DNA of 64,000 nt from Haloarcula limicola (GTDB taxonomy: Archaea; Halobacteriota; Halobacteria; Halobacteriales; Haloarculaceae). The translations under genes and the position numbers were made by a program. The stretch spans positions 372,001 through 436,000 of the forward strand of contig NZ_WRXM01000001.1 in the NCBI RefSeq assembly GCF_010119205.1, in the 5' to 3' direction. This document shows, one piece after another, positions 21,512 through 50,706 of this stretch; position 1 is the stretch's first letter; each line of letters starts with the position of its first letter. A model generated the notes under the pieces. The model made no database searches. It was given only the letters and a program-made list of their open reading frames with translations, and was not told where the DNA came from.

Positions 21512-22873
21512 TTACTGGCTGTACGCGTTGGCCAGCTGACTGATGACCTCGTCGTTCGAGCCGCCGGAGATGAACGAGGAGATGGCGGAGTTGACACCCG
21601 AGGCGACGGCGGGCGGTGCCGCGAGTCCGTGGGCCAGCGAGCGCGGCTGGGCGCTGCTGTTCTGGAAGTCCTCGATCTGGTCGGAGGAGAACTCGTTGAA
21701 CGGCTCGGTCGAGGCATCCTTCCGGGGCGGAATCGCGCCCTTGCCGGGGCAGAAGATCTCCTGTGCCTCGGTCGTGCCGGCGAACTGGCACCACTTCGTG
21801 GTCGCGTCCGGCGACGGGTTGTTGACCGGGTAGGGGAACGAGTCCATGTTCAGGGAGTACGACCCGGCGGTGCCCGGGAAGACGACGTAGTCCCACTCCT
21901 CGCCGTACTTCAGGTCGTTCGTGATGTAGGTGCCGGCCGCCCAGTCGCCCTGGTGGATGAAGCCGGCCTCGCCGTTGATGACGCCGTTGTTGGCCTCGGT
22001 CCACGAGATGGAGCCCGCGTCGCTCGGGTAGTACTGGCTGTACTCGCGGACGATGTCGAGCGCCTGCCCGAGGGAGTCGGAGTTGGCGTTGATCTTGCCC
22101 TCCTCGAACGTCGCGGCGTACGTCTCGGGGTCCGTGACGCCCAGGTACACCGTTGCGAAGAGCTGGACGGTCGACCACGGGGAGTTGGTCTGGTGTGCCA
22201 TGCCCGTGTATCCGGCGTCGCTGACGGCCTTGAGCGCGCCGGTGAGATCCGACGGCGTCTCGAGGCTCGACGGGTCCACACCGGCGTCCTCGATGACGCT
22301 GACGTTGTAGAAGACGTTGTTGAGGCGGTGAATGTTGAGCGGGACCGTCACGTAGTTCCCGGCCGGCTGCGCCGCGGCCTTCGGGCCGGCGAGGTAGTTC
22401 TCCTTCATCCCGTTCTCGCTCCAGACGGACTGGCCGATGTCCTTGAGGAGGTTCGCGTCCGTGTACGGCTTCAGCGCCGCACCGGGCCACTGCTGCCAGG
22501 TGCTGGGGTGGTTGCCGTTCTGGATGCGGGTTCGGATGTTGGACTGGAGGTTCGAACCGGCTCCGCCGGCGATGAGGTTCTCGTCGAACTGAACGTTGGG
22601 ATACTTCTCGGTGAAGGCGTTCATCATGTCCTGAATCGCTTCCAGTCCGTCGCCCTCTCCCCACCAGTGAGCGACTTCGAGCGCCTGCGTCTGCGTTGCA
22701 CCGCCGTCGCCGCCGTCGCCGCTGGTACTGCCCCCATCGCCGCCGTCGCCGTCGGTACTGCCGCCGTCGCCGCCGTCGCCACCACAGCCGGCGAGCGATG
22801 CAGCACCTGCGGCACCGGCGATTCGAAGCGCGTTCCGTCGTGTGAGCCGTTTGTCAGAGTTGTCGTCAGTCAT
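21512..22873 (-). CDS. Sugar ABC transporter substrate-binding lipoprotein
   Basis: A 453-residue exported binding protein. The Tat signal is TRRNALRIAGAAGAASLAGC, with lipobox Cys at residue 30, followed by a long Gly/Asp/Ser linker built of GGDGGDGGST-type repeats. The mature domain has VAHWWGEGDGLEAIQDMMNA, VPLNIHRLNNVFYNVS, FIHQGDWAAGTY and VVFPGTAGSYSLNMDSF, the pattern of glucose/maltose-type type I binding proteins. It is the closest relative in the window of the signal-less protein at 45242, with many shared blocks. A minus-strand TATA element lies near 22914-22923. The precise sugar is unknown. Confidence 0.92.
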   Translation of the reverse strand: MTDDNSDKRLTRRNALRIAGAAGAASLAGCGGDGGDGGSTDGDGGDGGSTSGDGGDGGATQTQALEVAHWWGEGDGLEAIQDMMNAFTEKYPNVQFDENLIAGGAGSNLQSNIRTRIQNGNHPSTWQQWPGAALKPYTDANLLKDIGQSVWSENGMKENYLAGPKAAAQPAGNYVTVPLNIHRLNNVFYNVSVIEDAGVDPSSLETPSDLTGALKAVSDAGYTGMAHQTNSPWSTVQLFATVYLGVTDPETYAATFEEGKINANSDSLGQALDIVREYSQYYPSDAGSISWTEANNGVINGEAGFIHQGDWAAGTYITNDLKYGEEWDYVVFPGTAGSYSLNMDSFPYPVNNPSPDATTKWCQFAGTTEAQEIFCPGKGAIPPRKDASTEPFNEFSSDQIEDFQNSSAQPRSLAHGLAAPPAVASGVNSAISSFISGGSNDEVISQLANAYSQ

Positions 22874-30657: not shown

Positions 30658-31734
30658 TCACTGGTGTCGCACGTCGGTGACGATGATCTGGGTCGCCTCG
30701 ATTTCCTCGATGACCGCGCCCCAGCCGCCGACTTCGTATCGGTCGCCGTCGACTTCGAGCGTCGCGCTGATTCGCCCGGCGAGTTGAGCCAGCGGTATCG
30801 GGTCCTTCCGTCCCATCGTACTGCCGGTGTAGTCCACCCCGACGATGGTCCCGGAGAGGTTCACCCGCTCGTTGGTGTCCGTGTCGTAGCCGCGGACGGT
30901 CGCCGAGATGGTCGCCCCCTCGTCCAAGAGCGGTTCGATGTCGCGAATGGCGTGGCGGAGGTCGACGTACGACGTGGGCGTCTCCGGCGTCCGCTCGGTG
31001 TAGACGGTGTCCCAGATCTCCCACAGGCAGGTGATGAAGAACCAGTGGAAGACGTAGGTGTGCGTGCGGTCGTTGACGAGGACGCCGTACTCGCTGACGG
31101 AGTGCCGATGCGGCGCGAAACAGGTCCACGTCCGGTCGATCAACACGAGAAACGGCGACGGGATCTTCCGATGGCGCGCCTCCGTACACGCCCGCTCGAT
31201 GTCGGCCACGTCGGGTATCTCCTCGTCCGGACCCGTACAGATGCACAGTTTGATGTTGACGCCGCGTTCGAGGGCGTCGTGTAGCTCCGGGGCCAGTTCG
31301 TAGAACTGGTCGGTGTTCACCCCCAGTTGGATCTGGTGCTCCGCGGTTTCGATGAGCTCTCGGGCCCGGTTGAGAACGGTGTCGAACCGCTTGACGATGC
31401 TGACCTCGTGATCGGAGATCTCCGGTTGATTCCAGCGGTCTTCGATGCTCTCGGCGGCGTTCAGGTACTTGTCCGACCGAGAGCGGAGGTCGTCGAGCAC
31501 GTCGTCCGGATTACGCGCCCGCGCGGTGAGACTGTCCTGCTGGAACGTCTCGATGTACCCCTTCGATTCGAGGTCCCGAAGCACGTCGTAGATCCGCGGG
31601 TCGGGAACGTCGCACGATTCGGCGATATCCGTCGCCGAGGCCGTTCCCAACCCGAGTAGCGTCACGTAGGCCTCCGCCTGATACGGCGAGAGACCGGCGT
31701 CTTCCAGTACCGTCGTTAGTTCGTCGTCGTCCAT
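30658..31734 (-). CDS. TrmB-family sugar-responsive transcription regulator
   Basis: A 358-residue TrmB protein. The N-terminal winged HTH is SATDIAESCDVPDPRIYDVL then ESKGYIETFQQDSLTARARN, and the C-terminal ligand domain includes IQLGVNTDQFYELAPELHDA and VFHWFFITCLWEIWDTVYTE (Trp/aromatic-rich). It lies beyond the 3'-distal side of the ABC operon's promoter region, transcribed in the same direction as that operon but upstream of it, so it may read into the 30425 promoter region. It plausibly controls the ABC genes. The two Cys near residue 180 (KLCICTGPDEE) are not seen in the 19118 paralogue. Confidence 0.9.
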   Translation of the reverse strand: MDDDELTTVLEDAGLSPYQAEAYVTLLGLGTASATDIAESCDVPDPRIYDVLRDLESKGYIETFQQDSLTARARNPDDVLDDLRSRSDKYLNAAESIEDRWNQPEISDHEVSIVKRFDTVLNRARELIETAEHQIQLGVNTDQFYELAPELHDALERGVNIKLCICTGPDEEIPDVADIERACTEARHRKIPSPFLVLIDRTWTCFAPHRHSVSEYGVLVNDRTHTYVFHWFFITCLWEIWDTVYTERTPETPTSYVDLRHAIRDIEPLLDEGATISATVRGYDTDTNERVNLSGTIVGVDYTGSTMGRKDPIPLAQLAGRISATLEVDGDRYEVGGWGAVIEEIEATQIIVTDVRHQ

Positions 31735-35804: not shown

Positions 35805-37529
35805 TCAACGAAGCTCGTAGACGCGGGCCTCGTACGGCGCGAGCGTGACCGTCGTCGGGTCGTCGTCGTCCCGGTCGTAGTTCGACAGCAGGAGCGACGC
35901 CGTCTCGAATTTGACCGGGACCTCGACGGTCTCCTCGTCGCCGAAGAAGTTGAGGACGACGAGCAGCCGTTCGGTCCCCTCGGCCGTACCGAGCGTTCGC
36001 GTGTAGACGTAGACCGACTCGTGGTCGGGCAGGAGGTCGCAGTAGTCCCCGTAGACCAGCGCGTCGTGGCTGTCCCGTAAGTCGAGGAGGTCCCGATAGT
36101 AGTTGAGGACGGAGTCGGGGTCGTCCTCGGCGTCGCCGACGTTGACCTCGTCGTAGTTCGGATTGACCTGAATCCACGGGTCGCCCTCCGTGAACCCGGC
36201 GTTCTCGGAGGGCTCCCACTGCATCGGCGTGCGGGCGTTGTCCCGGGACCGATAGGAGATGGTGTCCTGGATGTCGGTGTACTCGTCGTAGTCGTCGGTT
36301 TCCAGCAGCGCCTTCGCGTGGTTGATGGCGTCGACGTCCCGCATGTCGGCGATCGACGTCCACGGGGAGTTGGTCATCCCGAGTTCCTGTCCCTGATAGA
36401 TGTAGGGCGTCCCCGAGAGCGTCAGCGAGAACGTCCCGAGCAGTTTCGCCGACTCCCGGCGGTAGTTGACCGGGTCGCCGTACCGGGAGACGACGCGCGG
36501 CTGGTCGTGGTTCTCCCAGTAGATGGCGTTCCACCCCTCCTCCGCCAGGCCGTTCTGCCAGCGGCTCGTGATCTCTTTCAGCTCCTCGAGGTCCCACTCC
36601 CCGATCGCCCAGCGCTGGTTCTCCGCGTAGTCGAGCTTGGTGTGCTGGAAGTGAAACGCCATGTCCAGCGGGCCGTCGGTACCCGTGTACGACTTCGCCT
36701 GCTCGACGCTCAGCTGGGGCATCTCGCCGACGGTCATCACGTCGTAGTTCGAGAGCACCTGCTCGTCCATCGCGTCCAGATACTCCGTTATCCGCGGGCC
36801 GTCGATGAAGTGCTCGGAGCCGACCCACTCGCTGTCCGGGTCGCCGTCGGGCAGCCCGTCGGCCTTCGAGAGCAGGTTGATGACGTCCATCCGGAAGCCG
36901 TCGATCCCCTTCTCCAGCCACCACTCGATGGTCTCGAAGACGTCCCGCCGAACCGCCTCGTTCTCCCAGTTGAGGTCCGGCTGGGAGGTGTCGTAGAGGT
37001 GGAGGTAGTACGCCTCCCGTTCCTCGTCGTAGGTCCACGCCGAGCCGCCGAAGAAAGACTGCCAGTTGTTCGGCGGGCCGTCGCCGTCGCCTTCCCGCCA
37101 GATGTAGTAGTCCTCGTACTCGGGGTCTCCCCGCCGGGACTTCTGGAACCACTCGTGGTCGACCGAGGTGTGGTTGACCACGAGGTCCATGACGAGTTTC
37201 ATGTCGCGGGCGTGGATCTCCGAGAGCAGTTCCTCCCAGTCGTCCATGGTCCCGTACTCGTCGTCGATAGACTGGTAGTCGCTGATGTCGTAGCCGTTGT
37301 CCCGTTGGGGGGAGTCGTAGATCGGGTTGAGCCAGATGACGTCCGCACCCAGCGACGACACGTAGTCGAGGCGGTTGATGAGCCCCGGCAGGTCGCCGAA
37401 GCCGTCGCCGTCGCTGTCGGCGAAGCTCCGCGGGTAGATCTGGTAGACGACCGCCTCCTTCCACCACGCTCGCTCGTCGTCCGCTACTCCCCCGTTGGTT
37501 CGTGTTTCGTACGTTGTCATCTCTATCAC
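35805..37529 (-). CDS. Alpha-glucosidase, GH13 (oligo-1,6-glucosidase-like)
   Basis: A 574-residue paralogue of the 34007 and 37526 enzymes. Region I is MDLVVNHTSVDH, region II GFRMDVINLLSKADG with Val after the catalytic Asp, region III VMTVGEMPQLS, region IV YWENHDQPRVV, and region V QPDLNWENE. Val at the +1 position is associated with alpha-1,6 (isomaltose-type) or broad activity. The ATG overlaps the stop of the upstream 37526 gene (37526-37529), so the two are co-translated. A slightly later ATG (MTTYET) is another start. Confidence 0.92.
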   Translation of the reverse strand: MIEMTTYETRTNGGVADDERAWWKEAVVYQIYPRSFADSDGDGFGDLPGLINRLDYVSSLGADVIWLNPIYDSPQRDNGYDISDYQSIDDEYGTMDDWEELLSEIHARDMKLVMDLVVNHTSVDHEWFQKSRRGDPEYEDYYIWREGDGDGPPNNWQSFFGGSAWTYDEEREAYYLHLYDTSQPDLNWENEAVRRDVFETIEWWLEKGIDGFRMDVINLLSKADGLPDGDPDSEWVGSEHFIDGPRITEYLDAMDEQVLSNYDVMTVGEMPQLSVEQAKSYTGTDGPLDMAFHFQHTKLDYAENQRWAIGEWDLEELKEITSRWQNGLAEEGWNAIYWENHDQPRVVSRYGDPVNYRRESAKLLGTFSLTLSGTPYIYQGQELGMTNSPWTSIADMRDVDAINHAKALLETDDYDEYTDIQDTISYRSRDNARTPMQWEPSENAGFTEGDPWIQVNPNYDEVNVGDAEDDPDSVLNYYRDLLDLRDSHDALVYGDYCDLLPDHESVYVYTRTLGTAEGTERLLVVLNFFGDEETVEVPVKFETASLLLSNYDRDDDDPTTVTLAPYEARVYELR

Positions 37530-39190
37530 TCCAGTTCGTAGACGCGGGCTTCGTACGGTCGCAGCGTCAGAACGCCGTCGGTCGTCGGGACCTCGTCGTA
37601 GTTAGCGACGACGACCTCGCCCGCTCGTTCCGCGTGGTCGAGCGTCGCCACCGTCTCGGTGTCGTCGAAGTTCAGGACGACGAGCACCTCGTCGGTGCCT
37701 TCGTCCGTCGTGAGCGTTCGACGGTAGGCCCATAACTCTTCGTGGTCCGGTATCAGGAGCTGATAATCGCCGTAGACGAGGACGTCGTTCTCGTCTCGGA
37801 CGTCGACGAGGGTCCGGTAGTACTGCAGGATCGAGTCCTCGTCGCGCTCGGCCGCGGCGACGTTTATCTCATCGTGGTCGGGGTTGACCGCCAACCACGG
37901 TTCGCCGTCGGTGAAGCCGGCGTGCTCCGACTCGTCCCACTGCATCGGCGTGCGAGCGTTGTCGCGAGAGCGGGCGCGGACGATGTCCTGAACCTCCTCG
38001 AACGCGTCGATCTCGCCGGCCTCCATGGCCTCCTCGACCTTGCCGATCGACTGGAGGTCGTCGAGCTCGTCGAGGCTCGACCACGGGTAGTTGGTCATGC
38101 CGATCTCCTGGCCCTGATAGACGTAGGGCGTCCCCGAGAGCGTAAAGAGGAGCGTCGCCAGCAGCTTGCCCGACTGCCGTCGGTACTCGCCGTCGTCGGC
38201 GAACCGCGAGACGATGCGCGGCTGGTCGTGATTGGTGAGATACAGCGAGTTCCAGCCGTCGAGTTCGGTCTGCCAGTGGGACATGACCGCTTTCAGATCC
38301 GGCAGGTCCCACTCGGCGGGCGAGAGCCAGCGGTCGCCCACGTCGACGAACATGTGCTCGAAGTGAAACAGCATGTCCATCGGCCCCTCCGCGGAGACGT
38401 AGTCGCTCGCCGTCTCCACGTCGACGTCGACGCACTCGCCGACGGTCATCGTATCGTAGTTCTCGTAGGTCCGCTCGGCCATCTCCTCCAGATACGCCTG
38501 CGCGTTCGGCCCGTTGGCGAAGTGTTCGATGCCGGTCCAGTCCTGCTCGGGGTCGCCGTCCGGGAGACCCTCCGGCTTGGAGACGAGGTTGATGACGTCC
38601 ATCCGAAAGCCGTCGATCCCCTTCTCCAGCCACCAGTTCATCATCTCGTAGACGTCCTCGCGCACCTCGGCGTTGTCCCAGTCTAAGTCCGCCTGCGTCC
38701 GGTCGAAGAGGTGGAGATACTGCTCGCCGACCTCCTCGTCGTGCTCCCACGCCGACCCGCCGAACCCGCTCTTCCAGTTGTTCGGGGGCCCCTCGCCGTC
38801 GCGCCAGTAGTAGTACCCGCGGTAGTCGTCCTCGTCCTCGCGCGACTTCCGGAACCACTCGTGGTCGGTCGAGGTGTGATTGACCACGAGGTCCATGACG
38901 AGGCGCATGTCGCGGTCGTGGACTTCCGCGAGGAGTTCCTCCCAGTCGTCCATGGTCCCGTACGCCTCGTGGATGGCCCGGTAGTCGCTGATGTCGTAGC
39001 CGTTGTCCGCCTGCGGCGACTCGTAGACCGGATTGAGCCAGATGACGTCCGCACCCAGCGACTCGACGTGGTCGAGGCGATCGATGACGCCCTGTAGGTC
39101 GCCGACACCGTCGCCGTCGCTATCGTTGAAACTCTTGGGGTAGATCTGGTAGACCACCGCCTCCTTCCACCAGGTGCGCTCTCGGTCCAT
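37526..39190 (-). CDS. Alpha-glucosidase, GH13 (oligo-1,6-glucosidase-like), first gene of the pair
   Basis: A 554-residue GH13 enzyme. Motifs are MDLVVNHTSTDH (I), GFRMDVINLVSKPEG (II), TMTVGECVDVD (III) and YLTNHDQPRIV (IV). Region V is QADLDWDN, a divergent version of the usual QPDLN, which could shift specificity. It leads the two-gene unit with 35805 and has a strong-looking promoter: TATA near 39210-39222 with the sugar-island palindrome at 39236-39249 just upstream. All three alpha-glucosidases lack signal peptides, so they hydrolyse imported oligosaccharides inside the cell. Confidence 0.92.
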   Translation of the reverse strand: MDRERTWWKEAVVYQIYPKSFNDSDGDGVGDLQGVIDRLDHVESLGADVIWLNPVYESPQADNGYDISDYRAIHEAYGTMDDWEELLAEVHDRDMRLVMDLVVNHTSTDHEWFRKSREDEDDYRGYYYWRDGEGPPNNWKSGFGGSAWEHDEEVGEQYLHLFDRTQADLDWDNAEVREDVYEMMNWWLEKGIDGFRMDVINLVSKPEGLPDGDPEQDWTGIEHFANGPNAQAYLEEMAERTYENYDTMTVGECVDVDVETASDYVSAEGPMDMLFHFEHMFVDVGDRWLSPAEWDLPDLKAVMSHWQTELDGWNSLYLTNHDQPRIVSRFADDGEYRRQSGKLLATLLFTLSGTPYVYQGQEIGMTNYPWSSLDELDDLQSIGKVEEAMEAGEIDAFEEVQDIVRARSRDNARTPMQWDESEHAGFTDGEPWLAVNPDHDEINVAAAERDEDSILQYYRTLVDVRDENDVLVYGDYQLLIPDHEELWAYRRTLTTDEGTDEVLVVLNFDDTETVATLDHAERAGEVVVANYDEVPTTDGVLTLRPYEARVYELE

Positions 39191-40446: not shown

Positions 40447-41556
40447 CTACTCGACGCCGACCCACTCGCGGCCGTCGTCGCTGCGCTCGACGGCGTCGAG
40501 CACGCGCTGGACGGCCAGCCCGTCGGCGAAACCGGGCTCGTACGCGCCGCCGTCGGCCACCGCCGAGAGGAACTCGTAGTTCTCGTGGACGAACGTGTGC
40601 TCCCAGCCGATGACGTGGCCCGGCGGCCACCAGTGGTCGAGATACGGGTCCTCGGGGTCGGTCATCAGGATCGTCTCGTACCCCCGGCCGTCCTCTCGCA
40701 GCAGTTCGAGCTCGTTCAGCCGTTCGAGCGAGAACCGCAGGCTCCCCTTCGTCCCCTCTATTTCGATGGTGTGGTTGTTCTTGTTGCCGTTGGCCATCCG
40801 CGTGGCCTCTAAGGTCCCCATCACGCCGTTCTCGAAGGCGACCTGCGCGGAGTAGGCGTCGTCCACCGTGACCGGTCGCGTTTCGTTTTCGTCCTCCAGC
40901 GGCCGCTCGTCCACGAACGTGCGCAGGTGGCCGCTCAGCTCCTCGATGTCGCCGACGAGGAACCGCGCGAGGTCGACGGTGTGCGCGCCGAGGTCGCCGA
41001 GCGCGCCGCTGCCGGCCATCTCCTCGTCGTTGCGCCACGACCACGGGGCCTCGGGGTCGGTCAGCCAGTCCTGCAGATACCGCCCGCGGAAGTGTCGGAT
41101 CTCGCCGAGTTCGCCGCTCTCTAACAGTCGCTTCGCGTACTGGATAGCCGGGATGAACCGGTAGTTGAAGGCGATGCCCGCCGGTACATCCGTTCCGGCC
41201 GCGGCGTCGGCCATCCGCTCGGCGTCGTCGAGCGTCGGAGCCAGCGGCTTCTCGCAGAACACGGGGGTCCCGGCCTCCAGCGCGGCGATGGACGGTTCGG
41301 CGTGAACGTGGTTCGGCCCGAGGTTGTAGAAGACGTCGACCTCGTCGATCACGTCCCGCCAGTCGGTCGCCGTCCGCGCGAAGCCGAGGCTGTCGGCCGC
41401 CTCGGCGAGCGCCTCCTCGTCGCGGCCGACGACGACCTCGCGGTTGAGCTCGGGCGCGTCGTCGAAGAACATGGGCAGCCGCGCGAACGCGTTCGCGTGC
41501 GCCTTGCCCATGAAGCGATACCCCAGTACGCCGATGTCGAGTGGTTCTGTCGTCAT
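40447..41556 (-). CDS. Gfo/Idh/MocA-family oxidoreductase
   Basis: A 369-residue NAD(P)-dependent oxidoreductase. The Rossmann start is LDIGVLGYRFMGKAHANAFA, the catalytic Lys is in TPVFCEKPLAPTL, and the substrate domain has GSGALGDLGAHTVDLARFLV (Asp-His). The ATG at 41556 gives MTTEPLDIG; the open frame extends further upstream through a duplicated start segment and a hairpin element (41524-41701), which is not plausible coding. It stands next to a xylose-isomerase-like protein in the same direction, a pairing often seen in inositol or 3-keto-sugar degradation. Confidence 0.92.
   Translation of the reverse strand: MTTEPLDIGVLGYRFMGKAHANAFARLPMFFDDAPELNREVVVGRDEEALAEAADSLGFARTATDWRDVIDEVDVFYNLGPNHVHAEPSIAALEAGTPVFCEKPLAPTLDDAERMADAAAGTDVPAGIAFNYRFIPAIQYAKRLLESGELGEIRHFRGRYLQDWLTDPEAPWSWRNDEEMAGSGALGDLGAHTVDLARFLVGDIEELSGHLRTFVDERPLEDENETRPVTVDDAYSAQVAFENGVMGTLEATRMANGNKNNHTIEIEGTKGSLRFSLERLNELELLREDGRGYETILMTDPEDPYLDHWWPPGHVIGWEHTFVHENYEFLSAVADGGAYEPGFADGLAVQRVLDAVERSDDGREWVGVE
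41524..41556. repeat. Duplicated start segment, copy A (start of the 40447 gene)
   Basis: 33-base segment encoding MTTEPLDIGVL on the minus strand, matching 41669-41701 except at a few bases near its start codon. It flanks a 112-bp insert together with copy B. Confidence 0.75.
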
Positions 41557-41604
41557 GCGTTCATTTCCGATTTTGGACTGCGAGCGAACGGAGTGAGCGA
41601 GCAG

Positions 41605-41665
41605 CCTTTTTCGCCCACGTTTTTGGGCCGAGCGGTGCGCGCTGCGCACCCGAGGCCGAAAAAGG
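41605..41665. repeat. Compact stem-loop element with nested inverted repeats
   Basis: Outer arms CCTTTTTCG (41605-41613) and CGAAAAAGG (41657-41665); inner hairpin GGTGCGC-GCT-GCGCACC (41634-41650). It is preceded by CGAGCGAACGGAGTGAGCGA (41581-41600), a motif I recall as common between haloarchaeal genes. The whole lies between the two 33-bp start copies. Confidence 0.6.
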
Positions 41666-41731: not shown

Positions 41732-42700
41732 CTACTCCGCCCAGTACGCGTCGCCCGGCGTCGTCTCGAAGACCGCGCGGTCGAGCACGTCGACGGCCTT
41801 CTCCAGTCCCTCGCGGCCGCTGGTCAGCGAGTCCTCGTGTTCGATGGAGAGCGTGCCGTCGTAGCCCACCATCCGCAGGGTCGAGACGACGTCCTTCCAG
41901 TGAGCCTCGCCGTGGCCGTAGCCGATGGAGCGGAACAGCCACGAGCGGTCGGCCTCCTCGGTGTAGCCGGTCGTGTCGAGGACGCCCTTCTCGCGGGCGT
42001 TCTCCTCGTAGACCTTCGTGTCCTTGGCGTGGAAGTGATGGATGGCGTCCTCCTCGCCGAGCAGTCGAATGGCGGCGGTCACGTCGATACCCTGCCAGTA
42101 CAGATGCGAGGGATCGAAGTTCGCGCCGATGCGCTCGTTGGTCGCCTCGCGGAGTTTCAGCATGCCGTGCGGTTCGTAGACGAGCATGTTCGGGTGCATC
42201 TCGATGGCGACGTCGACGCCGTGGTCGGCGGCGTAGTCGGCGATCTCCGACCAGTACTCCGTGGCCACCTCCCACTGGTAGTCGTGGGCGTCGGCGTGCT
42301 CGGTCGGCCACGGTGCGGTGATCCAGTTGGGCACCTCGTCGTTCGGGCCGCCGGCGGGCAGCCCCGAGAAGGTCGTGACCGCGTCGACGCCGAGCTGGTC
42401 GGCCAGTTCGATGGCCTCCCGCAGTTCCGTGTCGGCCTCGCTCGCTCGGTCGTCGTCGGGGTGGAGCGGGTTGTTGTGCGTCGCCAGCGCGCTCACCTCC
42501 ATGTCGTGTTCGTCGAGCGAGTCTCGGAGTTCGGCTCGCGCGTCGTCGTCGTCGAGGTACTCCTCGCGTGGGAGGTGATCGTCGCCCGTGAACCCGCCGC
42601 AGCCGAGTTCGACGGCGTCGACGCCGATATCGTCCAGATACGAGAGCGCGTCTTCGAGGGACTGGTCGCCGAGCGGCACAGTCAGGACACCGACTTGCAT
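41732..42700 (-). CDS. Sugar phosphate isomerase/epimerase (xylose-isomerase-like TIM barrel)
   Basis: A 322-residue AP-endonuclease-2/xylose-isomerase-like TIM barrel. Candidate metal ligands are Glu in VDVAIEMHPNML, Asp in ANFDPSHLYWQG, His in IHHFHAKDTKV and Glu in GTLSIEHEDS. The N-terminus MQVGVLTVPLGDQSLEDAL and IGVDAVELGCGGF are typical. It lies directly upstream of the Gfo/Idh gene, and such pairs oxidise and isomerise or open inositols and 3-keto sugars. The start at 42700 follows from the conserved MQVGVLT opening; the exact substrate is unknown. Confidence 0.9.
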   Translation of the reverse strand: MQVGVLTVPLGDQSLEDALSYLDDIGVDAVELGCGGFTGDDHLPREEYLDDDDARAELRDSLDEHDMEVSALATHNNPLHPDDDRASEADTELREAIELADQLGVDAVTTFSGLPAGGPNDEVPNWITAPWPTEHADAHDYQWEVATEYWSEIADYAADHGVDVAIEMHPNMLVYEPHGMLKLREATNERIGANFDPSHLYWQGIDVTAAIRLLGEEDAIHHFHAKDTKVYEENAREKGVLDTTGYTEEADRSWLFRSIGYGHGEAHWKDVVSTLRMVGYDGTLSIEHEDSLTSGREGLEKAVDVLDRAVFETTPGDAYWAE

Positions 42701-42814
42701 GGGAGACACTGCGGAAATGAAGGTAATAAATCCTTGCCGAATACCGCCCGCGGTCGAATGGGTCCAGAACCGGACGACATCGCACCGCGGGGAGGCGATA
42801 GTCGCCGTCACCGC

Positions 42815-43646: not shown

Positions 43647-45137
43647 TCAGTCGTCGGTCTCGTATCGCTCGAACAGCGTCGTGAGCTGCTTCGCGCGCAT
43701 GGTCAGCATCCGCGCGTTGACGTACATCTCGCCCAGCGCGAGGTTCTGCTCCTCGGCGATGGCGGCGACGTGTTCGGCCTCCTCGACGTTCTCGCGGGAC
43801 GTCTCGGCCACGTCGTCGGCGATGGAGGCGACCTCTTCGCTACTGGCCGCCTGGTCGTCGGTAGCGTTGCTGATCTCCTTGACGCCGGAGCTGGTCCGCT
43901 GAACGTGTTCCATGATCGATTCGAGCGCTTCGAGGCCCTCGTCGACCGCCACCTGCCCGTCCTCGACAGAGTCCTGCATCTCCGTTATCTCCTCGACGGC
44001 GTCGTCAGTCTGGTCCTGGATGTCCTCGATGAGGTCCTCGATCTGGTCGGTAGCGCCCTTGGTCTCCTCGGCGAGGGTCTTCACCTCGTCGGCGACGACG
44101 CCGAAGCCGTTGTTCTCCGCGCCCGAGGAGGCGTGGGCGGCCTCGATAGAGGCGTTCAGCGCGAGGATGTTGGTCTGTTCGGCGATGTTGTCGATGAGGT
44201 CGACGATCTGGCCGACCTCCTCCATCCGGTCGTTCAGCGCCCGGACCGTCTCGACCACGTCGTCGGTCCGCTCGACCGTCGTCGCCATCGTCTCGTGTGC
44301 CTCCTGTCCGGCCTCGATCCCCTCGACCGTCCGGCGCTCGGTCTTGTCGGCCATCTCCGTGACCTCGTTCGAGGAGGCCGCGATCTCCTCGATGGTCGCG
44401 GACATCTCGGACATCTCGCTGCTGATGGTCGAGATCTGCCGGTGCTGTTCGTGGAAGACGTCGGCGATTCCCTGGACGGTCCCGGCGACGCTCTCGGAGG
44501 CCTCCTTGACGGCCTGGGTCGCCGCGGTCACCTGCTCCGAGGACCCGGCGACGTCGTCGGAGAACTCGCTCGCCGTCTCGATAGTCTGTTCGAACGCGGT
44601 CGCCATCTCGTTGAACTCCGCGGCGAGTTCGTTGAGCGAGGCCGACGGCGTCTCCTCGCTCATCCGCTGTCGGAGGTCGCCTTCGCCCGCCGCGTCGACC
44701 GTCGCACGGTACTCGGCGAGGTACTCCGAGAGTTCGTCCGACGAGAGGTCGTCTGCCGCCACGACGCCGCCGTCCGTCGTCGCCGTCGGTCGCTCCGGCC
44801 GCGACGGAGCGGCTACGGGCCGCTCGGCGAGTTCGGTTCGCGCGAATGCGGCGTCCGCGACGAGCGCGTCCCGCGTCGCTCGGGCCGATTCGAGTTCGTC
44901 GGTCAGCCGGTCAGTCTCCGTTTCGAGCGCCGCACGCTCGGTCTCCCCTTCCGCCAGCGTCTCACGGAGTCGCCGCACGGAGTAGAGAGCACCCGCCGCC
45001 GCGGCGACGAGCCCCGTCCCCGAGAGAACCGGTACCAATCCCGACGGAGCGAAGCCGACGACACCCACCTGATACAGGGCATGGAGGAACTGCCCCAGTA
45101 CCGCCCCTGACATCCGTTCACTCACTGCCTCGTTCAT
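43647..45137 (-). CDS. Methyl-accepting chemotaxis transducer without an extracellular sensor domain
   Basis: A 496-residue haloarchaeal transducer (Htr). The N-terminus has one or two hydrophobic segments ([37 protein letters not shown], to residue about 54) with a very short outside loop. A coiled coil and HAMP-like region ([20 protein letters not shown]) follow, then the long signalling domain with [20 protein letters not shown] and [20 protein letters not shown], the CheA/CheW tip. Because no periplasmic ligand domain exists, the ligand must be sensed from inside, through the membrane, or via a soluble partner. It is divergent (104 bp) from the signal-less binding-protein paralogue at 45242. 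Confidence 0.93.
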
Positions 45138-45153
45138 ACGATTCCATTTCGAG

Positions 45154-45165
45154 ATGGGTTATATA
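45154..45165 (-). promoter_or_regulatory. TATA element of the transducer gene
   Basis: TTATATAA-type sequence on the minus strand about 20-28 bases before the ATG at 45137, in the divergent spacer. The 45242 gene has its own TTTCTTAA-like element (45209-45216) on the plus strand. Confidence 0.5.
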
Positions 45166-45241
45166 AATCATCGTGCCCGGAGAATCATGTCTGAGAACGG
45201 GCGGGGTAGTTTCTTAACGGCGCGGTGGAGAGGGTACCGGT

Positions 45242-46444
45242 ATGTCACGCTCTTCGTCGGCCCGCGGTGGGGCGGGAAGCGGTGTCGAGTTGCTGCATCG
45301 GCTGGTCGGTGGCGACGGCGGTGCGGCCCTCGACGCGCTCCTCGACGGATTCGAACGGCGACATCCCGACGTGTCTCTCGGCGACGTCACCGACGAGAAC
45401 CTCAGTCTGGAAGTCAAGAGCCGCATCCTCAAGGAGAACCCGCCGGACGTGTGGATCGAGTGGCCCGGCAAGAACCTCAAGCCCTACGACGACGCCGGCG
45501 TCCTGGGCGACGTCTCGGCGGTCTGGGAATCAGGGACGATGGAGCGCAACTACCTCGAGGGGCCGAAGGAGGCCGCGCGCTTCGAGGGGACCTACCGCGC
45601 CGTGCCGATCAACATCCACCGCATCAACAACCTCTTTTACAACGTCTCGCAGGCGGAGGCCGTCGGCGTGGACCCGGCCAGTCTCGACAGTCCGCGTGCG
45701 CTCGCGGAGGAAATCGATCGAATCGGCGAAGAGACGGAACGCCTCGGAATGCTGTTCCCGATGAAGAACCCGTGGACGGTCCTGCAGATGTGGGAGACGG
45801 TGTTGCTCGGCGAGCACGGGCTCGATACGTACGTCGGCGTCACCGACGAGTCCGCGTCCGCACACCGCCGGGCGATCGCCGACGCGCTGGACATCGTCAA
45901 ACGGTACGGCGAGGCGGCGCCCGAGGACAGGCTGTACACGTCGCTGACCGACGCGAACGCGCGGTTCACGCGGGGCGAATCGGTGTTCTTCCACCAGGGC
46001 GACTGGGCGGCCGGCGAGTACGCCGACGCCGACGGATTCGGCTATCGAGACGACTGGGACCACGTCCCGTTCCCCGGGACCGACGGCCTGTACGCGATGA
46101 ACATGGACTCCGTCGTCTCCGCCGCGGAGACGGACAATCCCGAGGCCGTCTCGACGTTCCTCGGCTACGTCGGCTCCGCCGACGGGCAGAAGCGATTCAA
46201 CCAGCGGAAGGGGTCGATACCGCCCCGTACGGACGTCGATACGAACGCGTTCACGCCGTTCTTACAGGACCAGCAGACGGCGTTCCAGCGCTCGCAGGCG
46301 CAACCGCTCTCGATCACGCACGGACTGGGCGTCCGTCCCGCACAGCTCATCGAACTGAAGACGGCGATGTCGACGTTCGTCTCGACGTGGGACGTCGAGG
46401 CAGTCGCGGACGACGTCGTGGCGGCGTTCGACACGCGGGCCTAA
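45242..46444 (+). CDS. Sugar-binding-protein homologue without a signal peptide
   Basis: A 400-residue paralogue of the exported sugar-binding lipoprotein at 21512. Shared blocks are VPINIHRINNLFYNVS (VPLNIHRLNNVFYNVS there), FHQGDWAAGEY, VPFPGTDGLYAMNMDS, the KGSIPPR block and the LSITHGL region. Yet it begins MSRSSSARGGAGSGVELLHR with no twin-Arg, hydrophobic core or lipobox, and an in-frame TAA lies seven codons upstream, so no signal can be added. It is therefore expected to be cytoplasmic. It is divergent from a transducer that lacks an extracellular sensor, and next to gluconate dehydratase; a soluble sugar receptor for taxis or regulation is the best hypothesis. Confidence 0.9.
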   Translation: MSRSSSARGGAGSGVELLHRLVGGDGGAALDALLDGFERRHPDVSLGDVTDENLSLEVKSRILKENPPDVWIEWPGKNLKPYDDAGVLGDVSAVWESGTMERNYLEGPKEAARFEGTYRAVPINIHRINNLFYNVSQAEAVGVDPASLDSPRALAEEIDRIGEETERLGMLFPMKNPWTVLQMWETVLLGEHGLDTYVGVTDESASAHRRAIADALDIVKRYGEAAPEDRLYTSLTDANARFTRGESVFFHQGDWAAGEYADADGFGYRDDWDHVPFPGTDGLYAMNMDSVVSAAETDNPEAVSTFLGYVGSADGQKRFNQRKGSIPPRTDVDTNAFTPFLQDQQTAFQRSQAQPLSITHGLGVRPAQLIELKTAMSTFVSTWDVEAVADDVVAAFDTRA

Positions 46445-46494: not shown

Positions 46495-47745
46495 ATGGGA
46501 CTGGCGAACGACGTAGACTACGCTGACTTGCACGACCCCAACGCCGAGTACACGATGCGAGAGCTCTCCTCGGAGACGATGGGCGTCACCGCGAAGCGCG
46601 GCGGCGGCCGCGACGTCGAGATCACCGACGTCCAGACGACGATGGTCGACGGGAACTTCCCGTGGACGCTCGTCCGCATCTACACCGACGCCGGCGTCGT
46701 GGGCACTGGGGAGGCCTACTGGGGAGCCGGCGTCCCGGAACTCATCGAGCGCATGAAGCCGTTCGTGGTGGGCGAGAACCCGCTCGACATCGACCGCCTC
46801 TACGAGCACCTCGTCCAGAAGATGTCCGGCGAGGGCAGCGTCGAGGGCGTCACCGTCACCGCGATCGCGGGCATCGAGGTCGCGCTGCACGACCTCGCCG
46901 GCAAGATCCTCGAAGTGCCGGCGTACCAGCTGCTGGGTGGGAAGTACCGCGACGAGATGCGCGTCTACTGCGACTGTCACACCGAGGAGGAGGCCGACGC
47001 CGACGCCTGCGCCGAGGAGGCCCGCCGCGTCGTCGACGAACTGGGTTATGATGCCCTGAAGTTCGACCTCGACGTTCCCTCGGGGCTGGAGAAGGACCGC
47101 GCGAACCGTCACCTCCGTCCGGGCGAGATCCGCCACAAGGCCGAGATCGTCGAGAAGGTCACCGAGGAGGTCAAAGACGAGGCCGACGTGGCCTTCGACT
47201 GCCACTGGACGTTCTCCGGCGGCTCCGGCAAGCGGCTGGCCGACGCCATCGAGGACTACGACGTCTGGTGGCTCGAAGACCCGGTTCCCCCGGAGAACCT
47301 CGAAGTGCAGGAGGAGGTCACGAAGTCCACGAACACGCCCATCACGGTCGGCGAGAACCGCTACCGCGTGACCGAGGAGCGCCGCCTCATCGAGAACCAG
47401 GCGGTCGACATCATCGCGCCCGACATGCCGAAGGTCGGCGGCATGCGCGAGACGCGGAAGGTCGCGGACGTGGCAAACCAGTACTACGTCCCGGTGGCGA
47501 TGCACAACGTCTCCTCGCCGGTCGCCACGATGGCGAGCGCCCACGTCGGCGCGGCCGTCCCCAACTCCCTGGCCGTCGAGTACCACTCCTACGAACTCGG
47601 CTGGTGGGACGACCTCGTCGAGGAGACGGTCATCGAGGACGGCTACATCGAGATCCCCGAAGAGCCGGGCCTGGGCCTCACGCTCGACATGGACGCCGTC
47701 GAGGAGCACATGGTCGACGGCGACACCCTCTTCGACGAAGCGTAG
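46495..47745 (+). CDS. gnaD: D-gluconate dehydratase (mandelate racemase/enolase superfamily)
   Basis: A 416-residue enolase-superfamily dehydratase, expected to convert gluconate to 2-keto-3-deoxygluconate. Catalytic and metal motifs are visible: general-base Lys in ALKFDLDVPSGLEKDRANRH, Asp in VAFDCHWTF, Glu in WWLEDPVPPEN, Glu in TVGENRYRV, and His in VAMHNVSSP. The N-terminal stretch DPNAEYTMRELSSETMGVT resembles haloarchaeal gluconate dehydratases more than xylonate dehydratase (XacD), but the two are close and a sugar-acid mixture is possible. The glucose dehydrogenase at 23155 makes its presumed substrate. It is 50 bases after the binding-protein homologue. Confidence 0.88.
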   Translation: MGLANDVDYADLHDPNAEYTMRELSSETMGVTAKRGGGRDVEITDVQTTMVDGNFPWTLVRIYTDAGVVGTGEAYWGAGVPELIERMKPFVVGENPLDIDRLYEHLVQKMSGEGSVEGVTVTAIAGIEVALHDLAGKILEVPAYQLLGGKYRDEMRVYCDCHTEEEADADACAEEARRVVDELGYDALKFDLDVPSGLEKDRANRHLRPGEIRHKAEIVEKVTEEVKDEADVAFDCHWTFSGGSGKRLADAIEDYDVWWLEDPVPPENLEVQEEVTKSTNTPITVGENRYRVTEERRLIENQAVDIIAPDMPKVGGMRETRKVADVANQYYVPVAMHNVSSPVATMASAHVGAAVPNSLAVEYHSYELGWWDDLVEETVIEDGYIEIPEEPGLGLTLDMDAVEEHMVDGDTLFDEA

Positions 47746-47937: not shown

Positions 47938-50706
47938 ATGAGCGAGACGATCAGCGTCCTCCAGGTCGACGACGACCCGGCGTTCGTGGAGTTAGCGGCC
48001 GAGTTCCTCGAACGGGAGGACGACCGTCTCCGCGTCCGAACCGCGAGGTCCGCAGGTGAAGGACTGGCGGCGCTGGACGCGGAACCGGTAGACTGCATCG
48101 TCTCAGATTTCGAGATGCCGGAGACGAACGGACTGGAGCTGCTCGACGCCGTCCGCGAGGAGCATCCGGAGTTACCGTTCGTCCTGTTCACCGGGAAGGG
48201 GTCCGAAGAGGTCGCGAGCGAAGCGATCCGCCGGGGAGCGACCGATTACCTGCAGAAACAGAGCGGCACCGAACAGTACGCGCTGCTGGCCAACCGCGTC
48301 CGGAACGCCGTCGAGACGTATCGCTCGGCCCGGCATGCCGCCGAAGAGGAGCGCATCAGTACCGTCGTTCGAGAGGCCAACCGGGTGTTGGTGCGTGCCG
48401 GATCCTGTGCGGACATCGAGGCGCGGATCTGCGAACTCATCAGTCGCGCCGACCCGTACCAGTTCGCGTGGATCGGCCGTCTCGACGACGAGACGGACCG
48501 TATCGAGCCCAGCAGTTGGGCCGGCGGCGGGGGGTATCTCGACGATATCACGGTCACGGCCGACGAGACCGATACCGGGCTGGGCCCGGCCGGGACCGCG
48601 CTCCGCGAACAGCGATTCGCCGCCACGCAGGACGTGAAATCGGACTCCGAGTTCACGCCGTGGCGCGAGGCCGCCCTGGAGTACGGCTTCCGTTCGGTCG
48701 CCGGGATTCCGCTGACCTACGATTCGGAGCGCCACGGCGTCCTCGTCGTCTACGCCGATCGACCGCGCGCCTTCGACGAGACCGAAGCGCAACTGCTCAC
48801 CGAACTCGGCGACGACATCGCCCACGCGCTACACGCCCAACGGGTCCGGACCGACCTCGAACGGACGACGGTACGCCTCGAAGGGCTCTTCGAGAACTCG
48901 CCGGACATGATAAATCTCCACGACGGGGACGGCACTATCGTCGACGCGAATCCGATGCTCTGTGAGAAGCTCGGGTACTCGGTCGGCGAACTAGTCGGCA
49001 CTAAGATCTGGGAGATCGACGACCAGATCACCCCCGAGGAGGCCCGCGAACTCTGGTCCAGTCTGGCCCCCGGAGAGCGCCACGAACTGCAGAGCGAGTT
49101 TCGACGGTGCGACGGCTCGACGTTCCCCGTCGAAGTCCACCTGCGCCGTCTCCGTGACGAGGGCGACGACCGTTTTCTCGTCACCAGCCACGACGTCTCC
49201 GACCAGCGAGAGCGCCAACAGCAGTTGGAGGCGCGGTCGACCGCCATCGAGTCGGCGACGGACGGGATGGCGATCTTAGACGAGGACGAGGGGTACACCT
49301 TCGTCAACCAGGCCCACGCCGACGTGTACGGCTACGACTCGCCCGAGGCGTTCTACGGCGAAAACTGGCGAATGTGTTACGGGAGAGCGGAGGCCGAACG
49401 CTTCGAGCGCGAGGTCATGCCGATACTGGCCGCCGACGGGGAGTGGATCGGGAAGGCGACCGGCAGACGGCGGAGCGGTGAGACGTTCATGCAGGAGATC
49501 TCGCTGACCCAGCTCGACGACGGTGCGATCATCTGCGTCGTTCGAGATATCAGCGAGCGAGAGGCCCACCGAAAGCGCCTCGAACAGCTACAGCGTCGGA
49601 CGCAGGCGCTGATGACGACCCAATCAGTCGAGGAGACGGCGGCCGTCGCCGTCGACGTCGCGGACGACGTGCTCGGCGCGGAACTCAGCGGGTTTCACGA
49701 GTCGAGTGAAGACGGGCGACGGCTGACGTTAGTCGCGCAGACCGACGGCCACGGCTCGACGTTCGAGTCGTCCCACGCGTACGAACGCGACAGCGACGAC
49801 CCGGTCGATTCGGTCGTCTGGGAGGCCTTCGATCGGGGGACGCCGTACTACGTGGACGACTGCGCCGAACACGAGCGGTTGGCCGGGAACACCCCGGCCG
49901 GCAGCGTGATTATCTGTCCGATCGCAGACCACGGCGTGTTCGTCGTCTCGGCCGCGGAGCCGAACGCGTTCGACGAGACGGATCACACGCTCGCCGACAT
50001 CCTGGCCTCGACGTTCACGGCGGCGCTTCAGCGGGTGGACCGCGAGTCGCTCCTGCGCGAACGGGAGCGCGAACTGACGAGGCAGAACGAGCGGCTGGCG
50101 GAGTTCGCGAACGTCGTGAGTCACGACCTGCGGAACCCGCTCAGCGTCCTCGAAGGCTCGCTGGAACTGGCTGAGGAGACGGGCGATCCCGAACACTTCG
50201 AACGGAGCCGGCAGGCACTCTCACGCATGGAGCAGCTCATTGACGACGTCCTCGCGCTCGCCCGACAGGGCGGGGACGTAGACGAGCTCGACGCGGTCGA
50301 GGTCGAGACGATAGCCGAGGCGTGCTGGCGAAACGTGGCGACCGGCGAGGCGTCGCTCCGCGTCGAACGCGGGGGCAGTATCCGGGCCAGCGAGAGCCGG
50401 TTCAAACAGCTCGTCGAGAACCTGTTCAGGAACTCGGTCGAACACAGTGACCGACCCGTCACCGTAACGGTCGGCGTCCTCGACGGCGGACGGGGGTTCT
50501 ACGTCGAGGACGACGGCGACGGCATCCCCCCGGCGGAGCGCGAACGGGTCTTCGAGAGCGGCTATTCGAACGCCTCGGGCGGGACCGGGTTCGGCCTCGC
50601 GATCGTCCAGCGCATCGTCGCGGCCCACGGCTGGGAGATCGCCATCGAAGAGAGCGACGCGGGCGGCGCGCGCTTCGAGGTGACCGGCGTCGAACCGGTC
50701 GAGTAG
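47938..50706 (+). CDS. Hybrid multi-sensor histidine kinase (REC-GAF-PAS-PAS-GAF-HisKA-HATPase)
   Basis: A 922-residue cytoplasmic signalling kinase. Order of domains: receiver (VLQVDDDPAF, phospho-acceptor Asp57 in CIVSDFEMP, FTGKGSE), GAF (about 145-300), PAS (about 315-430) with NSPDMINLHDGDGTIVDANP, a second PAS (about 435-560), GAF (about 575-715), HisKA with His729 in FANVVSHDLRNPLSVLEGSL, and HATPase (EDDGDGIPPAERERVFESGY; GTGFGLAIVQRI). No transmembrane segment is visible. Receiver-first kinases of this type are common in haloarchaea and usually lack an adjacent response regulator; none is present here. The signal is unknown. A palindrome CGCGTT-GT-AACGCG (47887-47900) precedes the gene. 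Confidence 0.94.
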   Translation: MSETISVLQVDDDPAFVELAAEFLEREDDRLRVRTARSAGEGLAALDAEPVDCIVSDFEMPETNGLELLDAVREEHPELPFVLFTGKGSEEVASEAIRRGATDYLQKQSGTEQYALLANRVRNAVETYRSARHAAEEERISTVVREANRVLVRAGSCADIEARICELISRADPYQFAWIGRLDDETDRIEPSSWAGGGGYLDDITVTADETDTGLGPAGTALREQRFAATQDVKSDSEFTPWREAALEYGFRSVAGIPLTYDSERHGVLVVYADRPRAFDETEAQLLTELGDDIAHALHAQRVRTDLERTTVRLEGLFENSPDMINLHDGDGTIVDANPMLCEKLGYSVGELVGTKIWEIDDQITPEEARELWSSLAPGERHELQSEFRRCDGSTFPVEVHLRRLRDEGDDRFLVTSHDVSDQRERQQQLEARSTAIESATDGMAILDEDEGYTFVNQAHADVYGYDSPEAFYGENWRMCYGRAEAERFEREVMPILAADGEWIGKATGRRRSGETFMQEISLTQLDDGAIICVVRDISEREAHRKRLEQLQRRTQALMTTQSVEETAAVAVDVADDVLGAELSGFHESSEDGRRLTLVAQTDGHGSTFESSHAYERDSDDPVDSVVWEAFDRGTPYYVDDCAEHERLAGNTPAGSVIICPIADHGVFVVSAAEPNAFDETDHTLADILASTFTAALQRVDRESLLRERERELTRQNERLAEFANVVSHDLRNPLSVLEGSLELAEETGDPEHFERSRQALSRMEQLIDDVLALARQGGDVDELDAVEVETIAEACWRNVATGEASLRVERGGSIRASESRFKQLVENLFRNSVEHSDRPVTVTVGVLDGGRGFYVEDDGDGIPPAERERVFESGYSNASGGTGFGLAIVQRIVAAHGWEIAIEESDAGGARFEVTGVEPVE

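Follow-up and report, generated by a model that had tools for sequence, protein, structure and literature searches.

A sugar-binding protein without an export signal as a candidate cytoplasmic partner of a membrane-hairpin transducer in the Haloarculaceae

As far as the literature that we searched shows, binding-protein-mediated chemoreception has so far been described only outside the cytoplasmic membrane. BasB and CosB of Halobacterium salinarum, which are described as periplasmic, co-purify with the transducers BasT and CosT (PMC3579733). The same organism has a receptor for an internal nutrient, the cytoplasmic arginine transducer Car (Htr11), which has no transmembrane helix and is itself the receptor (PMC3579733). 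A survey of bacterial substrate-binding proteins (SBPs) treats SBPs as extracytosolic and cytosolic matches to their Pfam models as proteins of other function (PMC9602780). In the open-licence literature searched we found no description of a chemoreceptor served by a cytoplasmic SBP, and an earlier report elsewhere is possible.

Here we describe a gene pair in a 64,000-nucleotide stretch of Haloarcula limicola DNA, hereafter the window (Table 1). As with BasB/BasT and CosB/CosT, an SBP is paired with a methyl-accepting chemotaxis protein (MCP)-type transducer in a haloarchaeon. Unlike those systems, the window SBP carries no export signal and the window transducer has no outside domain, and because both are absent the pair falls outside the BasB/BasT type definition. 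The original prediction held that the BasB/BasT logic may have moved inside the cell, an idea that is partly supported in that it fits both the anatomy of the two proteins and the distribution of their genes.

Table 1. Features of the locus, in window positions
Feature	Position	Strand	Description
Exported Tat-lipoprotein paralogue of SBP (comparison)	21512..22873	-	signal RRNALRIAGAAGAASLAGC
GFO/IDH/MocA oxidoreductase	40447..41649	-	PF01408, PF22725; near transducer in several genera
IolE-like xylose-isomerase-type TIM barrel	41732..42811	-	PF01261; same direction as transducer
MCP-type transducer	43647..45137	-	496 aa; N-terminal membrane hairpin, variable cytoplasmic coil, MCP signalling hairpin
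Intergenic promoter region	45138..45241		104 bp between the divergent genes; aligned in eight related genomes
Transducer TATA box	45160..45169	-	TATATAAATC on + strand; centre about 27 nt before ATG
SBP TATA-like box	45210..45218	+	TTTCTTAAC; centre about 28 nt before ATG
SBP gene	45242..46444	+	400 aa; signal-less (predicted cytoplasmic) ABC-type sugar-binding protein
Enolase-superfamily sugar-acid dehydratase	46495..47745	+	gluconate/galactonate-dehydratase-like; PF13378/PF02746; downstream of SBP

The binding protein lacks an export signal and the transducer an outside domain

The 45242 protein matches PF13416 (SBP_bac_8, E 1.8e-18) and PF01547 (SBP_bac_1, E 4.7e-14) in Pfam, with homology extending over the domain, and its closest solved structure is 2b3b, the glucose-binding protein of Thermus thermophilus (E 1.1e-27). 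Its proposed paralogy to the 21512 lipoprotein is borne out by 38% identity over 389 residues. It has no hydrophobic stretch, twin-arginine signal or lipobox, in agreement with the earlier claim that a signal peptide is absent. The in-frame stop upstream of the ATG, previously placed at seven codons, actually lies nine codons away. The eight sense codons in between (RRGGEGTG) cannot encode a signal. We checked the locus for a mis-called start hiding an upstream Tat signal and found none, nor was such a signal present upstream in any of 39 related signal-less SBPs whose N-termini we inspected. Orthologues of the 45242 protein have the same short polar N-terminus, often with an in-frame stop a few codons upstream.

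The promoter region points the same way. The transducer TATA box is kept in all eight aligned genomes, with a TATATATATCC-type variant in Halapricum, and the SBP box is kept in the eight as TTTCTTAAC, TTTCATAAC or TTGATAAC-like sequence. Leaderless haloarchaeal transcripts require a box-to-ATG spacing of about 27-28 nt. The spacing at both genes is that of leaderless transcripts, which supports the annotated starts of SBP and transducer alike; the position of the SBP box is consistent with a leaderless transcript that would begin at 45242. Since the orthologues are equally signal-less and both genes keep a TATA-like box at this distance from the ATG, the absent signal is not a start-site artefact. 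Purifying selection on the SBP gene is indicated by the differences between orthologues, which are two to six times as frequent at third codon positions as at positions 1 and 2.

The transducer matches MCPsignal (PF00015, E 2.5e-40) and has two hydrophobic segments, at about residues 12-30 and 33-51. Because the loop between them is very short, there is no periplasmic domain, as had been predicted. All 34 orthologues identified below (about 484-496 aa) likewise have a hydrophobic N-terminus and no outside domain, with only one hydrophobic segment exceeding a simple threshold in several of them. The juxtamembrane coil (about 55-120) is variable. It is followed by a conserved DGG motif (122-124) and by a HAMP-like conserved stretch at 153-178 (GDLxxR...LNxLAxxFNEM) that the Pfam HAMP model does not match. 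The 17-letter tip of the signalling hairpin is nearly invariant across the 34 orthologues, and a CheA kinase (PF02895 above cut-off) is encoded in 34/34 genomes with the transducer. AlphaFold models of the transducer and the SBP were poor (mean pLDDT 55.3 and 51.0) because only nine and six sequences were usable as input; the low-confidence transducer model is all-helical, with helices at 4-29 and 35-104 and no other fold.

Co-occurrence of the two genes across the Haloarculaceae

A contig scan recovered five close SBP orthologues with a divergent adjoining transducer, in Haloarcula-type genomes and Halapricum. Conservation of the divergent arrangement in other haloarchaea had been named as a check on the prediction, and the pair passes it: 14 genomes from three genera have the two genes side by side and divergent, namely eight of the window's genus, five of Halapricum (g7) and one of genus g2 (G003). 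The G003 pair (L053:3124-5304 and neighbourhood) lies a few kb from an EF-2 gene, unlike the sugar-island context of the window. In the draft assembly of Halapricum sp. CBA1109 (G392; L013/L154), one of the five from the contig scan, the transducer is intact and the SBP is split by a frameshift, which reflects a sequencing error or else a loss of recent date.

Conservation extends beyond adjacency. A transducer orthologue is present in 34 of 146 Haloarculaceae genomes, scoring 440-989 bits where paralogues from the same genomes score 228 bits or less, and none was found outside the family among 392 genomes of the order. All 34 also encode a signal-less SBP: with a profile built from 25 signal-less SBPs, an intact copy scores 508 bits or more in 33, and the 34th (G392) holds the frameshifted copy. 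Among SBP hits at E<=1e-75, a threshold below which a more distant signal-less SBP could have escaped the search, no signal-less SBP was found in the 112 Haloarculaceae genomes without the transducer. Hits at this threshold occur in 44 of the 112, and their N-termini are all those of Tat lipoproteins (that of G399 being assigned through G283, which has the same coordinates). More divergent signal-less SBPs, at 411-431 bits, were seen only in the transducer genomes G372, G247 and G394. These three are among seven genomes (with G003, G119, G319 and G198) that have a second signal-less SBP and a single transducer orthologue. The second SBP of G247 and G394 (L184, L185) is divergent, at 37-38% identity, with genes for hydrolases and for another enolase-superfamily enzyme close by; in G394 it is present twice on one replicon.

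Adjacency alone is ruled out as the cause of this co-occurrence, as the SBP and transducer genes lie apart in 20/34 genomes. In g4, g5 (Halorhabdus), g11 and g17 they occupy separate loci and both are present. The transducer of g4 retains its GFO, TIM-barrel and AIM24 neighbours with the SBP elsewhere, and in G172 it directly faces the dehydratase gene, again with the SBP elsewhere. In all seven Halorhabdus genomes examined (L142, L144-L149) it has 2-oxoacid:ferredoxin oxidoreductase genes as neighbours, perhaps a sign of some connection with central carbon flux, and in six g11 genomes (L136-L141) it adjoins anthranilate phosphoribosyltransferase and other tryptophan-pathway genes; the neighbour names in g4, G172, Halorhabdus and g11 are our own readings of the sequences. 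The SBP gene in genomes with an unlinked pair is found near unrelated or other sugar genes. The gene for the signal-less SBP at L059 is divergent from that for a TrmB-like sugar-sensing regulator, possibly another partner for an internal binding protein.

As a control we followed the TIM-barrel gene of Table 1, which is present in 72/146 genomes, 28/34 with the transducer and 44/112 without it. That every gene of the sugar island accompanies the transducer is thereby rejected, on the one island gene tested. An EF-2 tree of 28 genomes calls for no fewer than five gain or loss events of the pair, each of which affected both genes; a sign test over the five independent pairs gives p 0.06, the lowest value possible with five pairs. 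As adjacent genes can be removed by one deletion, losses of that kind count less and the unlinked lineages carry the weight. Within an unlinked-gene lineage, G411 (g11) is the sole near-complete genome to lack both genes, at 99% completeness; G316 and G438 of g11 are incomplete.

These distributions bear on two readings that need no contact between the proteins. The two genes could serve one pathway separately, with the SBP controlling or buffering internal sugar through, for example, an enzyme or a TrmB-type regulator, and the transducer sensing membrane potential or redox through its hairpin. The transducer indeed has a short hairpin only, and in Halobacterium, MpcT uses two transmembrane helices to sense membrane potential (PMC3579733); the oxidoreductase neighbours in Halorhabdus and the varied sugar genes near signal-less SBPs would also suit such a division of labour. 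We nonetheless judge it unlikely, though worth serious attention, because 34/34 co-occurrence with 20 unlinked pairs exceeds what a shared pathway usually gives, and because the TIM-barrel gene, a pathway neighbour, has no such co-occurrence. Co-occurrence through a shared niche or joint transfer of the sugar island, again with no functional contact, we regard as improbable. It would sit well with a window rich in sugar uptake and breakdown genes and with positives confined to one family; against it, both genes persist at separate loci in g4, g5, g11 and g17, and the distribution of the single other island gene tested departs from that of the transducer.

Origin, cleft and gene context of the signal-less binding proteins

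The 40 signal-less SBPs in a tree of 72 form a single clade, set off by a branch that has 100/100 support, which suggests that the signal was probably lost once. Like the exported TsgA/GlcS/MalE-type lipoproteins (PF13416/PF01547; 2b3b), they belong to the same sequence family and conserve cleft-type motifs: W74-P-G76, HR at 126-127, GDW at 253-255, D289, KGSxPxR at 323-329 and HG at 360-361. They differ from those lipoproteins in lacking the Tat lipoprotein signal, in forming a separate clade and in the N-lobe tryptophan (column 21), which is present in 100% of the exported set and mostly replaced in the signal-less SBPs. A further distinction is that no permease or other ABC transporter gene lies directly beside the paired SBP gene. 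Column 20 is Arg in the transducer-paired clade (Trp to Arg at residue 20), and other signal-less SBPs differ there. In the Thermus protein these tryptophans stack on the sugar, so their replacement means that the ligand of the signal-less SBPs may differ.

The conserved cleft also bears on whether these SBPs now act as enzymes of the cytoplasm or in some other non-sensory role. Cytosolic single-domain proteins of other function do occur in these Pfam families (PMC9602780), but the residues typical of sugar binding are conserved here and the partner gene encodes a chemoreceptor, which makes this account very improbable. It is scarcely credible that the SBP is in fact exported, whether from an overlooked start or by a non-classical route, and acts outside like BasB or CosB: although SBPs are described as acting outside the cytoplasm (PMC9602780), many orthologues have in-frame stops a few codons upstream, 0/39 sequences have a signal, the position of the promoter box suits the annotated start, and the transducer offers no outside domain that could receive the SBP.

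Downstream of the SBP, the gene originally called gluconate dehydratase does encode an enolase-superfamily sugar-acid dehydratase; its gluconate identity is likely rather than certain, as its best NCBIfam models, galactonate (207 of 311 bits) and gluconate/galactonate (205.5 of 750 bits), both score below their cut-offs. It follows the SBP directly only in the window's genus (Haloarcula-type genomes, 96-99% identity) and is absent from that position in Halapricum. From Arg 20 and the adjacent dehydratase, our guess is that the ligand might be a sugar acid such as gluconate. On the other side of the pair, the GFO and TIM-barrel genes lie close to the transducer in most adjacent-pair loci; the 40447 oxidoreductase scores 349 bits against the levoglucosan dehydrogenase model NF052479, short of the cut-off of 650.

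The wider surroundings are also rich in sugar genes. A sugar island at 18000-39190 comprises two clusters for ABC-type sugar uptake together with the genes of a TrmB-type regulator (30658-31734) and of a phosphotrehalase-like GH13 enzyme (37526-39190). Downstream of the dehydratase, 47938-50706 encodes a large response-regulator/GAF/PAS histidine kinase, and genes resembling it are found close to some of the other signal-less SBPs (L055, L063).

Proposed sensing of the internal sugar pool

We consider it reasonably probable that the 45242 protein is the cytoplasmic ligand-binding partner of the divergently encoded transducer and reports on internal sugar or sugar acid. An exported sugar-binding protein of the TsgA/MalE kind would once have lost its Tat lipoprotein signal, and its descendants would have remained cytoplasmic, serving exclusively as partners of a single transducer with an inward-facing input side. 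Imported sugar, or a breakdown product such as a sugar acid, would close the SBP, and the loaded SBP would dock on the cytoplasmic coil or the HAMP-like region of the transducer below the membrane hairpin. Docking would then change CheA activity via the ordinary MCP hairpin, leading to steering by the internal sugar pool.

In genomes with a second signal-less SBP, both proteins could serve the same transducer. Whether one membrane-hairpin transducer reads one or several cytoplasmic SBPs as exchangeable ligand adaptors, steering the cell by metabolites already imported, is in our estimate an even call.

Reception of an internal nutrient, as proposed for this pair, would resemble that by Car. 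Unlike Car, the window transducer has a membrane hairpin, and its ligand-binding part is likely a separate protein. In bacterial taxis through the sugar phosphotransferase system, internal sugar status reaches the chemotaxis kinase. The flow of information proposed here would be alike in this respect, and would differ in that no phosphotransferase parts are proposed and sensing would fall to a binding protein once used in transport.

The co-occurrence of SBP and transducer suggests that these cells are guided in their steering by substances already imported. If this is true, transport binding proteins can become internal metabolite sensors simply by losing a signal peptide, and a family-wide cytoplasmic version would offer a genetically tractable way to test steering by internal nutrients. 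The strict co-occurrence also lists about 40 matches to 'extracellular solute-binding protein' models that should not be extracellular.
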